Positions 16,896 to 19,985 of a stretch of DNA of 21,519 bases are shown in pieces (positions within the stretch are counted from its first letter, which is position 1; each line of letters starts with the position of its first letter). Where the stretch lies: NCBI GenBank assembly GCA_937897265.1, contig CALCPT010000048.1:1-21519 (forward strand). The letters run 5' to 3'. A program made the position numbers and the translations under genes. The notes under the pieces were generated by a model. That model did no database searches. It worked only from the letters and a program-made list of their open reading frames with translations, and was not told the origin of the DNA. Source of the DNA: an uncultured Alcaligenaceae bacterium. GTDB lineage: Bacteria > Pseudomonadota > Gammaproteobacteria > Burkholderiales > Burkholderiaceae_B.

Positions 16896-17765
16896 ATGAA
16901 GATTAGACAATTCTTAAAAGCACCTTGTGCCGTCGCGTTGACGGTTGCATCACTGTTAGTCGGTTCGCTTGCTATGGCGCAAACGCCTGCGCCGGCTGCT
17001 ACAACTGCTGCTGCAGGTACTAAGGTTGAGATGCAATGGCTGGGGCAAGCTGGCTTTCGTATCGTTACTCCAGGTGGCAAACTGCTTGTGGTTGACCCTT
17101 GGATCAAAGGGGGCCCTAAAGCGCCGGCTAACTACAAGGCTGATCTAGCTGCGTTGGGCAAAATTGATATCTTGCTGGTCACGCATGCACACGTTGATCA
17201 TTTGGGTGACGCACCTGCGCTGGCTATTTTGAACAAGACCAAACTGTATGGTCCTGCTGACATGGTGACGCCACTCATCACGCTTGGCATGATCCCTGCA
17301 GAGCTGGGGCATCGTTTTAATAAAACAGGTAACGTTAAACCGGCACCTGGCATCAAGGTGACTGCGGTAAAGGCCGAGCATTCGTCTTTAATTGTCTGGA
17401 ACAATCCACTCACGAACAAAAACGAATCGCACCCAGCCGGTGAAGCGATGGGTTACATCATCGAGCTCGAAAACGGCTTCAAGATCTGGCACATGGGTGA
17501 CACTGGCTTGTTTGGTGATATGCAATTCATCGGTGAACACTACAAGCCTGATTTGGTATTAATTCCAATCGGTGGCAACTTTACGATGGATCCTGAAGAC
17601 GCTGCATTTGCGTTGAACACGTGGATCAAGCCCAAGATGGTGATCCCGATGCATTACAACTCAAACCCTTTAACACCCGGCACGTTGGCTGAGTTTCAAG
17701 CGGCGATGAAGGGCAGTTCGATCAAGGTATTCCCGATGACTGAAGGGCAGACGCTGACTTTCTAG
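16896..17765 (+). CDS. Exported metallo-beta-lactamase-fold metal-dependent hydrolase (UPF0173-like)
   Basis: This 289-residue protein has an N-terminal signal peptide with cleavage probable after AMA (residue 28), then an Ala/Thr/Pro-rich linker and one metallo-beta-lactamase domain. The metal ligands are visible: H-x-H-x-D-H at His97, His99, Asp101 and His102 (VTHAHVDHLGD), His162 (AEHSS), Asp202 in HMGDTG and His253 in PMHYN. The spacing and GDTG block resemble the UPF0173/UlaG-like group, whose substrates are mostly unknown; most of those proteins are cytoplasmic, whereas this one should act in the periplasm. It sits 72 nt after livM, so it may hydrolyse a lactone, amide or ester before or after binding by the importer. 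A ribosome site GAGAGA precedes the ATG. Substrate not assigned. Confidence 0.88.
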   Translation: MKIRQFLKAPCAVALTVASLLVGSLAMAQTPAPAATTAAAGTKVEMQWLGQAGFRIVTPGGKLLVVDPWIKGGPKAPANYKADLAALGKIDILLVTHAHVDHLGDAPALAILNKTKLYGPADMVTPLITLGMIPAELGHRFNKTGNVKPAPGIKVTAVKAEHSSLIVWNNPLTNKNESHPAGEAMGYIIELENGFKIWHMGDTGLFGDMQFIGEHYKPDLVLIPIGGNFTMDPEDAAFALNTWIKPKMVIPMHYNSNPLTPGTLAEFQAAMKGSSIKVFPMTEGQTLTF

Positions 17766-18111
17766 GCGTTTTTTTGCAGGTTGCGGTCTTCGAAGGTTAC
17801 GGGTCAGGGGTGCAGAGCGCCAGGGGGGACAGATTGTCTTGGTCCGCTTTGCGGACTGCCCTCAAGTTGCTTGTCTGAACGGCGGCGACCCAAACTCGCT
17901 TCGCTCAAACAAGGGCCGCCTTCATCCGTCCAGCCTGCTCAACTCTCGGCAAGACAAGACAGCCCACCCTGGCGCTCTGCACCCCTGACCCGTAACGAGC
18001 GAGCCAAACTATCCAGCTGGGTGCTTTACACGACTGCAATCTACAGCACGAACATCAGTGCCTATCCGATTATTTTGCGCAACTGCAGTGTCATAAATAA
18101 GGCGATTTAAC
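17766..18111. other. Gene-free convergent intergenic region
   Basis: This 346-base gap lies between two convergent genes. A T7 run follows the hydrolase stop directly (17769-17775), with only a weak ACGC/GCGT stem before it. Next comes the 201-bp palindromic element (17796-17996). The last 115 bases, up to the phosphodiesterase stop, show no supported gene, promoter or terminator. A plus-strand open frame crosses the region but has the composition of a chance frame through a palindrome. Confidence 0.7.
17796..17996. repeat. 201-bp palindromic element with perfect 30-bp terminal inverted repeats
   Basis: Bases 17796-17825 and 17967-17996 are exact reverse complements over all 30 positions. 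The outer ends read GTTACGGGTC and GACCCGTAAC. The pairing goes on inward: GGG (17826-17828) with CCC (17963-17965), then TTGTCTTG (17834-17841) with CAAGACAA (17950-17957) after a 5-by-5 mismatch. The central 108 nt hold smaller hairpins: GTCCGC-TTT-GCGGAC (17842-17856), CAAG-TTG-CTTG (17863-17873) and GGCGGC/GCCGCC arms (17881-17886, 17915-17920). No target-site duplication is visible and no transposase is encoded. It may be an interspersed repeat (REP- or MITE-like) that also works as a two-way terminator. No second copy was seen in this window. Confidence 0.85.
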
Positions 18112-18936
18112 TCAATCAATCAGCTTGCCGCCGTCATGAAACGGATAAGGTCCCTCGAAGGTGCCACAAGGCATTTGGTGAGAGACTAAGCCACGATCAG
18201 TGTCCCATGCATGTACTTTAAAGCCCCCTGGCTCAAGGATCCATTGCGAGGCGGCATCAGGAGCAAGATCTAGGGCGACCTGATGTGCTGGTGCCGGTGA
18301 GGTTGACGCAATCGTTGAACCAAACCGCACATCAATCGAGCGATGCAAATGACCGCAAATGACGCGTTCAATGTTTGAATACTTTGCGACAAGCGCTTCA
18401 AGTTCTGCCGCACCCTGCAATAAACCAATCTTATCCATATGACCGATTAAGGTCTTGAAAGGCGGATGATGCATCGCAATGACGACCGGCATATCTTTGG
18501 CGTTATTCAATGCATCTTCAAGCCACGCCAACCGTTGAGCGCAAAGAGCCCCGTGGCTTTGTTCAGCAACGGTGGTGTCCAGTGTGACCAAGCGCACTGG
18601 CCCCAGTTGCACTGTGTATTGCACAAAACCTGAAGCGCCCAAGTATGTATGCTCAGGAAACGCCGCGCGCATTTGTGTCGCGTCATCATGGTTGCCCGAT
18701 AGCAAGTAATACGGCACGGTTAAAGGAGCCAGACACTCACGCAAGTGCGCGTACTCTGCGGGCCGACCGAAATCGGTCAGGTCACCGGTCAGAACAACGG
18801 CGTGAGGTTTTTGACGAAGCTGTTCAATGGTCTGCACAGCTCGATGCAAATAGGGTGCAGTGTCAAGGCGACCATAGGCTAAGCGGCCAGGCTCTCGAAT
18901 ATGCAGATCAGTCAACTGTACAAAGAGTGTACTCAT
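18112..18936 (-). CDS. Class III phosphodiesterase of the calcineurin-like metallophosphatase superfamily (GpdQ/Icc-like)
   Basis: This is a two-metal phosphodiesterase of 274 residues, the same size as GpdQ (glycerophosphodiesterase). All expected metal ligands are present: Asp10 and His12 (TDLH), Asp52 (TGDLTD), Asn82 and His83 (SGNHDD), His156 (MHHPP), and His196 and His198 (GHLHRS). There is no signal peptide, so it acts in the cytoplasm. The ATG at 18936 overlaps the stop of the upstream ABC ATPase gene (ATGA), and an alternative TTG five codons earlier is less likely. The coupling suggests the enzyme works on what the transporter brings in, perhaps a glycerophosphodiester or another phosphodiester. 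CpdA-type cAMP phosphodiesterase activity is the main alternative, and sequence alone cannot decide. Confidence 0.85.
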   Translation of the reverse strand: MSTLFVQLTDLHIREPGRLAYGRLDTAPYLHRAVQTIEQLRQKPHAVVLTGDLTDFGRPAEYAHLRECLAPLTVPYYLLSGNHDDATQMRAAFPEHTYLGASGFVQYTVQLGPVRLVTLDTTVAEQSHGALCAQRLAWLEDALNNAKDMPVVIAMHHPPFKTLIGHMDKIGLLQGAAELEALVAKYSNIERVICGHLHRSIDVRFGSTIASTSPAPAHQVALDLAPDAASQWILEPGGFKVHAWDTDRGLVSHQMPCGTFEGPYPFHDGGKLID

Positions 18937-19985
18937 TGGTCGCTCTCGCAAGGCATAAAGTGTTCGGTGGCGATGGTAAATGAGACGCGCTCGCCGACTC
19001 GGAAAGGGCTATCGCGGTGTGCTTCGGCCGCCAGTGTGGCCTGGCCCGCCACCTCTAAGCGATAATGAATGCGGTCGCCTAAAAAACTTCGCTGTGTAAT
19101 CAGTCCTTCGGGTTGACTAGGCGTTAACGGTTTTAAGTGAATATCTTCTGGTCGTACAAACAGTTCAGGCCACGGACCATGAGGACAAGACAGAGCGACT
19201 TGTGCAAGCGTTATGGTGTCGCTTGCAATGTCTTTGCGGGTGCGCTGCAAGCGATTAATCCGTCCCAAAAATTCAGCGACAAACATGTGCTTAGGATTTC
19301 GATAGAGCTCCTCGCCCTGGCCCACTTGTATGATTTTTCCGCTGCGCATGACCGCTAGGCGATCAGCAATGGCCAGCGCCTCTTGCTGATCATGCGTCAC
19401 ATGAATCGTTGTCACACCCAGACGGCGTAACAAGTCTGCTAACTCATCGCGCAGAGTGATTTTGAGCTTGGCATCTAACGCCGTAAGTGGTTCGTCAAGC
19501 AATAATACTTTTGGTCTTACCGCCACGGCACGAGCGAGCGCAACACGTTGGCGCTGGCCACCAGACAGTTCTGCGGGTCGCTTATGTTCTAGGCCCTTGA
19601 GTTGCACCAAGTCAATCAGTTCGCCAACAGTCTGCTTGAGTTGCTGTGAGCTAGTACCTCTGAGCCGCAATCCATAACCAATATTGGCCTGAACTGTCAT
19701 TTGTGGAAAAAGTGCGTAATGCTGAAAGACCATCCCGATCTGACGTTTCTCAACGGGCACATGCGTTACCTCTTGCGCACCAAACCGTATCACGCCCCCT
19801 TGATCAACCCGTTCAAGGCCAGCGACAAGTCTTAACAGCGTCGTTTTACCGCAACCGGAAGGGCCGAGCAACGCCAACACTTCGCCGGGATACACCTCAA
19901 GCGAGGACGACAACAAGCCCTGTGTGCCGTCAGGATATGTCTTGGCGCACTGACTAATCTGCACTGAAGTGCGTTCAAGTTCCAT
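18933..19985 (-). CDS. ABC importer ATP-binding protein (PhnT/PotA/FbpC-like)
   Basis: This is the ATPase subunit of an importer for a small solute, 350 residues long. It carries Walker A GPSGCGKTT, Q-loop VFQHYALFP, signature LSGGQRQR, Walker B VLLLDEPLTALD and switch VTHDQQEAL. A C-terminal TOBE-type regulatory region follows (about 240-350, with ELFVRPEDI). The frame is open for 43 codons upstream, but that stretch overlaps the permease gene and is not ABC-like, so the ATG at 19985 (MELERTSVQ) was chosen; a GAGG lies some 10 nt before it. It overlaps the upstream permease by 11 bp and the downstream phosphodiesterase by 4 bp. Homologues are often labelled 2-aminoethylphosphonate, iron(III) or spermidine transporters; the substrate is not settled here. 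Confidence 0.9.
   Translation of the reverse strand: MELERTSVQISQCAKTYPDGTQGLLSSSLEVYPGEVLALLGPSGCGKTTLLRLVAGLERVDQGGVIRFGAQEVTHVPVEKRQIGMVFQHYALFPQMTVQANIGYGLRLRGTSSQQLKQTVGELIDLVQLKGLEHKRPAELSGGQRQRVALARAVAVRPKVLLLDEPLTALDAKLKITLRDELADLLRRLGVTTIHVTHDQQEALAIADRLAVMRSGKIIQVGQGEELYRNPKHMFVAEFLGRINRLQRTRKDIASDTITLAQVALSCPHGPWPELFVRPEDIHLKPLTPSQPEGLITQRSFLGDRIHYRLEVAGQATLAAEAHRDSPFRVGERVSFTIATEHFMPCESDQ

Follow-up and report, generated by a model that had tools for sequence, protein, structure and literature searches.

The palindrome of the window (the whole 21,519-nt stretch of DNA analyzed here) is not isolated but belongs to a large, alignable family of folding DNA repeats that occurs in many bacteria, reaches dozens of copies in some genomes, lacks an Rfam name, and is apparently undescribed. 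Its core is a covarying three-way junction. With moderate confidence, we favor the reading that the element is a non-autonomous, REPIN-like chromosomal mobile palindrome whose folded single-stranded DNA form would be the substrate of an enzyme acting in trans.

The whole element, delimited by its arms and folds, spans 17796..17996 and is modeled on the − strand, which is the sense of covariance model R1 and the strand with an excess of G.U/T over A.C pairs. The 201-bp palindrome with perfect 30-bp ends described in the original prediction was borne out: outer arm 1 (17796..17825, 30 nt), which is unlike most relatives' arms in sequence, and outer arm 2 (17967..17996) are perfectly complementary across 30 bases (extension by three positions gives 32 of 33), and folding of 17790-18002 yielded −123 kcal/mol on the + strand (z −10.2) and −138 kcal/mol on the − strand (z −11.7), with none of 200 shuffles as good for either strand. 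Placement between convergent genes was likewise correct. The left neighbor (16896..17765, + strand), a metallo-β-lactamase-fold hydrolase (PF12706), ends at 17765, and the right neighbor (18112..18951, − strand), a calcineurin-like phosphoesterase (PF00149) that we take to be cpdA-like, ends at 18112. A 109-codon frame also runs through the palindrome (window 17781-18110) and is probably spurious. The conserved core (17825..17967, − strand) matched over its full length both R1 (142 bits, the window being one of the 18 training sequences of that model) and model R2 (127 bits). On the − strand, the lower stem of the junction pairs 17955..17961 (5′ side) with 17835..17841 (3′ side), a helix present in the folds and among the covarying helices. 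The 6-bp side hairpin P4 (17842..17856, − strand) carries a triloop that reads AAA in the window and GNA in most relatives. The long arm P3 (17857..17954, − strand), delineated by consensus folds and covariation, has an internal A-rich bulge and bears the apical motif YTGTYTGAGCGNAGCGAGTTYG (17891..17912, − strand), which was identified by sequence, includes GCGAAGC (17898-17904, − strand) at the tip of the element, and also appears in records of other phyla. The three small central hairpins noted originally thus are not independent units but parts of a single conserved three-way-junction core.

Read on the − strand, cores of the family (17 sequences, then 18) folded to a common consensus consisting of the lower stem, the long arm with its A-rich bulge and conserved tip, and the 6-bp side hairpin. 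Covariation in the 18-sequence alignment was 0.396, as compared to 0.191 in shuffled controls, and slid partners did not exceed 0.113 (slid controls overall 0.07-0.11); two-sided changes were seen at 24 of 41 pairs. The covariance model of the core, R1, was then used to gather further copies. Its 96 matches (84 distinct rows) exhibited compensatory changes in 41/41 pairs with 93.5% of cells paired, and covariation rose to 0.725 (shuffles, 0.162) in the 84-row alignment and to 0.771 (shuffles, 0.172) in a wider alignment of 94 rows; because both alignments were fitted to the model, the slid and shuffled controls weigh more than the raw percentages.

Since R1 ends a few pairs inside the outer stem, 70 bases on each side beyond the model were compared; 12 of the 96 model-match rows had been dropped before this and the early neighbor analyses (8 duplicate places, 2 truncated, and the 2 weakest). 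The 76 elements with full flanks had a median local pairing score of 24.25 (5th percentile 16.75), as compared to a median of 6.5 (95th percentile 9.5, 99th 22.9) when left and right flanks of different loci, including related copies within one genome, were paired as a control. In the 77 of 84 rows with flanks of at least 60 nt, aligned arms ranged from 17 to 48 in length (median 26), 28/77 were perfect, and 2058 of 2146 aligned positions were Watson-Crick. Arm sequences mostly differ among copies, even within one genome (G016, G156), and blast matches in relatives often cover the middle of the element only (query 62-171, i.e., 17841-17950) while their different outer arms pair again. For a mobile element, it is unusual that the core is conserved and the arms are private. 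Sampled copies in G259 and G233 have nearly identical arms, so private arms are no rule for recent copies. Contig C5 of G233 has three copies (L100, L101, and L102) that are near-identical and point the same way, 5.6 and 6.3 kb apart. Compensatory change in the arms, a check named in the original prediction, was evident at the window's own site, where the 29-base arms of the G019 copy (L052) and of the window differ at 6 positions, all 6 of them compensated in the opposite arm. Among cross-phylum copies (45 strong picks, not all, from 99 matches; 44 with flanks), 11/44 had arms above the 99th percentile of the control, Lachnospiraceae, Blautia, and Peptococcaceae among them, so many of these copies are without long arms beyond the model. 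Loci from Variovorax, Polaromonas, and Acidovorax (L160 6800-7180, L176, L201, and L231) form a short-armed class that has the core and tip motif in common and in which a similar 3′ tail (GGGTCGCCTTTTCTTT...) opens a second hairpin; at the position of that tail, a Parabacteroides copy (L171) and a Flavobacteriales MAG copy (L153) have a GGTTACTTTT hairpin.

Among non-Watson-Crick pairs, G.U (G.T) is expected on the strand that folds and A.C on its complement. The arms beyond the model, read in the window's − strand sense, contained 42 G.U versus 11 A.C pairs (p 2e-5), and the model helices 122 versus 43 in an alignment that itself favors G.U; related copies are not independent in either statistic. 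The arm data bear on the view that the element is inert palindromic debris, its arms kept perfect by mutational processes such as template switching or hairpin-mediated correction and its structure free of selection. Correction at the DNA level would produce the high Watson-Crick fraction of the arms, and the arm-only hairpins at the window's site in two relatives (described below) resemble deletion products. However, the core motifs and junction are kept across many families, the arm mismatches are skewed 42 to 11 toward G.U/T, and divergent gaps are under-used, and we consider inert debris improbable. The G.U excess fits RNA equally well as DNA, and the same sign could result if an exposed strand suffered C-to-T damage. 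Structured RNAs usually carry tetraloops. When P4 loops were tallied (91 of 94 segments scored, 7 of these short or empty without a closed stem), 73/91 were triloops (GAA 30, GCA 16, GTA 6, AAA 15, others 6) and 4 were tetraloops, the GNA class comprising 52 of the 91. GNA loops with G-C closure are extra-stable DNA mini-hairpins, GCGAAGC being a type case (PMC4686876), and the occurrence of such loops here favors single-stranded DNA over RNA. Together, the G.U/T wobbles and the GNA loops single out one strand.

The position of the element relative to genes was scored in seven many-copy genomes, using 20-kb windows and simple, crude ORF picks as gene calls, with thresholds that varied slightly between counting rounds. 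From 70 of 92 matches (omitting second members of pairs, G733, and G565) plus 43 of 54, and leaving outside the count 8 elements with one neighbor not called, 105 elements were placed: 51 between convergent genes, 47 between codirectional genes, and 7 between divergent ones. Background gaps of at least 60 nt in the same windows were 22% convergent, 55% codirectional, and 23% divergent (p 4e-11), corresponding to approximately 23 convergent and 24 divergent gaps expected; G710 was exceptional in having 3/8 divergent. The under-use of divergent gaps indicates selection on position at least. Within codirectional gaps, 22 elements were sense and 25 antisense, and element orientation is thus neutral to transcription. 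At the fhs site, named for a gene that we presume from its C-terminal residues to encode formate-tetrahydrofolate ligase, the core has one orientation in L009, L011, L022, and L027 and the opposite one in L007, L008, L014, and L016, as judged from visible gene ends. Two inverted elements surround a gene that is presumably an enoyl-CoA hydratase in L110 and L111 (G022 and G021, C33), the second lying in a divergent promoter region.

These positional data bear on two further explanations. The main rival of a mobile palindrome is a structured RNA made by transcription, which could be an ncRNA in its own right or could protect or end the mRNAs of the neighboring genes at their 3′ ends, with the arms as an RNA stem. 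Such an RNA would account for the covariation, the − strand excess of G.U over A.C, and the preference for gene 3′ ends (convergent in 51/105 versus about 23 expected). It is harder to reconcile with an orientation that is neutral with respect to neighbors (22 versus 25), with P4 triloops in place of tetraloops, with a site that is empty in genomes of the same genus, and with a copy number that runs up to 92 in one genome while no copy was detected in 225/268 family genomes; moreover, a simple consensus scan for σ70-like promoters found 0 sites in 17600-18250. We regard a structured RNA as rather unlikely on this evidence. A bidirectional terminator specific to convergent gene pairs, the other explanation and one raised originally, is suggested by the convergent setting of the window's site and of all 14/14 close relatives' copies with both neighbors called (window included; L033-L044, L052, and L060). 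This idea was weakened by several observations: the same gene pair lies without an element in G024 and G007, separated by a 1-nt spacer; 54/105 sites in other genomes are not convergent, being codirectional (47/105) or divergent (7/105); and no T run follows either arm on either strand, where an intrinsic terminator has a GC-rich hairpin plus a T tract. A terminator scan of 17600-18250 found 0 sites, but it allows loops of 3-8 only and is therefore blind to a long hairpin such as this one. Taken together, a dedicated terminator appears highly improbable.

Evidence favoring the mobile palindrome comes from the state of the window's site in relatives. Empty sites, which the original prediction had suggested seeking, were found in G024 and G007 of the same genus, where a single base separates the stop codon of the phosphoesterase from that of the hydrolase and the element is absent; in G009 the stop codons are 10 nt apart. 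The element occupies the site in G000 and G019, and in G017 and G018 a short hairpin of arm ends is present, the next gene in G018 reading livM, not hydrolase. These arm-only hairpins look like deletion products. In a gene tree of 11 sequences, G024 and G007 group with G017, and G009 groups with the outgroups; judged from these sequences, a single gain with losses and two gains would both fit. The empty site of G024 reads TAA-C-TTA and the occupied site has about 115 nt beside the element, so that the element ends cannot be fixed there, and no target duplication was identified at the window's site. In G019 (L291, C81), a degenerate second arm-like stretch lies ahead of the full element, just past the phosphoesterase stop, and could be the trace of an older, deleted copy. 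At the fhs site on the end of G017 contig C20 (L010/L039), two poorly matching arm types are present and the gene end reappears inverted behind the element, an arrangement that is either a genuine recombinant or a fold-back introduced by assembly.

Paired copies also point to movement. In G259, a 530-730-bp unit composed of two inverted elements is about 86-96% alike at 10/10 windows compared (11 fetched), a similarity that suggests recent spread. Four of these units have the left end TTCTTGCG and an AAGAAC-like right end with variants, the right end mostly being followed by a variable count of ∼19-nt tandem repeats. Inverted pairs also occur in G764, G022, G175, G553, and G309, and the window copy is single. 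Outside the window's genus, an AAGA[AC] tag occurs no more than 18 nt beyond the 3′ arm in 27/43 copies, further downstream in 13/43 (tandem repeats), and on the 5′ side in 1/43; within the genus the tag is weak (3′ side 7/33, 5′ side 3/33, further downstream 0/33). The window has a possible degenerate 3′ tag, CTTCGAAGACC (17783..17795, − strand), comparable to the TTAAGAACC-like family tag, and the G017 remnant reads CTTAAGAAACC at this position. In G259 and a small number of others, CGTC comes after the arm, but this is not general.

The distribution of the family is broad and patchy. The window genome (3.75 Mb in 728 contigs, 89% complete) contains one copy, R2 likewise finding one, and a blast search with the element matched 17/61 genomes of the relatives' set, its own counted. 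R1 matched 19/32 genomes of the genus, 43/268 genomes and 14/43 genera of the family, and 56/399 genomes and 35/159 genera of the order; R2 matched 60/369 genomes and 48/272 genera of the class and 16/349 genomes of a phylum sample. The window genome is counted in every one of these figures, and since model E-values are rough after short calibration, chance may account for a few of the lowest-scoring genomes. Because the large searches scored 8-12 candidates per genome, copy numbers from them are lower bounds. When 150 candidates were scored in 21 chosen carriers, copies ranged from 1 to 92 per genome, the highest numbers being in G259 (92), G555 (54), G764 (37), G725 and G950 (33 each), G262 (32), and G565 (30). 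The original suggestion of an interspersed REP/MITE-like family is therefore supported by the copies in other genomes, the host genome itself having one copy. The 22-nt tip motif matched at least 118 stretches in a named collection, where we estimate approximately one chance match. Records listed include Variovorax, Polaromonas, Ralstonia, Acidovorax, Pseudoxanthomonas, Haemophilus, Parabacteroides, Flavobacterium, Sphingobacterium, Lachnospiraceae, Peptococcaceae, Gastranaerophilales, Desulfobulbaceae, and Nitrospirales; the phyla among these records, partly MAGs, are Bacteroidota, Bacillota, Melainabacteria, Desulfobacterota, Nitrospirota, and Pseudomonadota. R1 scores of cross-phylum loci are inflated, since these loci were picked by the tip motif. 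Relatives' contigs L005, L006, L021, and L028 end within the element, as repeats cause in short-read assemblies, and the element marks draft-assembly breakpoints as well as genes parted by insertions. Against the 4227 families of Rfam 15, the window element had no match at E up to 1. With E up to 5 allowed, 17 relatives produced 8 matches; every one was to a miRNA, snoRNA, or SECIS model and fell short of the gathering score. The best paired L069 with a plant miRNA model (41.7 bits versus a cut-off of 73, E 1.9e-6) and was taken as a chance match of a long hairpin. A published description of the family was not found in the open-access literature searched.

Replication strand was scored by local GC skew, with one element per window. 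The model strand lay on the C-rich strand in 18/20 cases in G555, 7/9 in G710, 4/5 in G366, 3/4 in G733, 11/18 in G156, 8/19 in G725, 7/15 in G262, and 0/2 in G565, whereas the main copies of G259 lay on the G-rich strand in 11/11; outside G259, 58/92 model strands were on the C-rich strand (p 0.016). Some lineages thus show a strong bias, one has the opposite sign, and others have none; a general rule was rejected because the bias was not seen in G725, G262, and G156. By the logic of IS608, the sign in G555 would be the unexpected one if the − strand were active. Among the G555 matches listed (L362-L381), each contig has a single element orientation, which tracks GC skew in 18/20 windows.

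The search for a mover centered on Y1 transposases. Y1_Tnp was present in 8/20 carrier genomes and absent from 12/20, so in many carriers the mover must be something other than a resident Y1 transposase. Within the genus, Y1_Tnp was found in 9/32 genomes, the window's draft genome not among them. When 26 Y1 loci were inspected (1.5 kb per side where available), a single locus had an element, located on one flank next to a partial IS200-like gene. A RAYT/Y1 link was rejected on these counts, and a lost or unsampled transposase is possible. Among ORF clusters of 189 loci, the 30 largest of which were inspected by eye, no recurrent partner or transposase gene appeared; these clusters held genes for housekeeping functions or transport, along with reading frames of the repeat. 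A phage or plasmid vehicle looks minor for the few copies tried. One Parabacteroides and one Variovorax copy had no phage matches, the motif was present in 3 viral contigs, the window element had no plasmid match, the Variovorax copy matched 3 plasmid records of 0.37-2.5 Mb, and a Haemophilus copy had no match in E. coli.

For the mobile palindrome, we infer the following sequence of events. The conserved core, with its three-way junction and apical motif, would be the part recognized in trans, and the outer arms would need pairing alone, such that their sequence may drift while complementarity is kept. What is recognized would be the − strand of the window in its folded state, most likely when replication exposes it as single-stranded DNA. 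Copies, frequently arranged as inverted pairs that bear an AAGAAC-like tag at their outer foot, may be excised and then pasted or copied into intergenic space, with insertion predicted to fall mostly downstream of genes, where it would do little harm. More tentatively, the family could represent a bacteria-wide selfish non-coding class that moves as folded single-stranded DNA without a dedicated transposase, its d(GNA)-tipped junction core being read by common host machinery and its self-complementary arms drifting freely; we see this broader proposal as possible and lean against it. In either form, the family makes testable the question of what copies palindromic repeats where a transposase is missing.

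Comparison with known systems places the element closest to REPs/REPINs and to the self-complementary TIR families of TIRtrons. MITEs of DDE insertion sequences are short, non-coding, and interspersed, with inverted ends. The element resembles them in all these respects but differs in that its ends usually vary among copies, and so are hardly recognition sites of one transposase; a target duplication was not identified, and no recurrent transposase gene appeared in the 30 largest ORF clusters of the 189 loci. With Rfam bacterial ncRNA motifs it has in common a covarying conserved secondary structure, the mark of a structured ncRNA, but it has no Rfam match. The self-complementary TIR families of TIRtrons and TIRYTs (PMC3733652, PMC6006769) are likewise longer than REPs, in some cases self-complementary, and occur in pairs or clusters away from the transposase gene. 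The element may be distinct from these families, whose published TIR motif is GGGGWSAS, in that 0/26 Y1 loci are flanked by it on both sides. Similarities to REPs, REPINs, and BIMEs are more extensive: the element is intergenic, downstream of genes, palindromic, and multi-copy, it often has a tag at one foot, inverted pairs are frequent and spread together (10/10 windows in G259), and pairing is kept while sequence changes. REPs themselves carry an unpaired GTAG or CGTC tag, are linked to RAYT/TnpA-REP, and measure 20-40 bp (PMC3733652), whereas the element is 201 bp in the window, with a branched three-way-junction core of about 125-175 bp in the family, a 17-48-bp outer arm that is mostly copy-specific, an AAGAAC-like tag, 12/20 carriers without a Y1 transposase, and, among the 26 Y1 loci, no Y1 (HUH) transposase flanked by the repeat on both sides. 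Size and transposase link thus exclude it from the REPs proper, and the element works like a giant REPIN.
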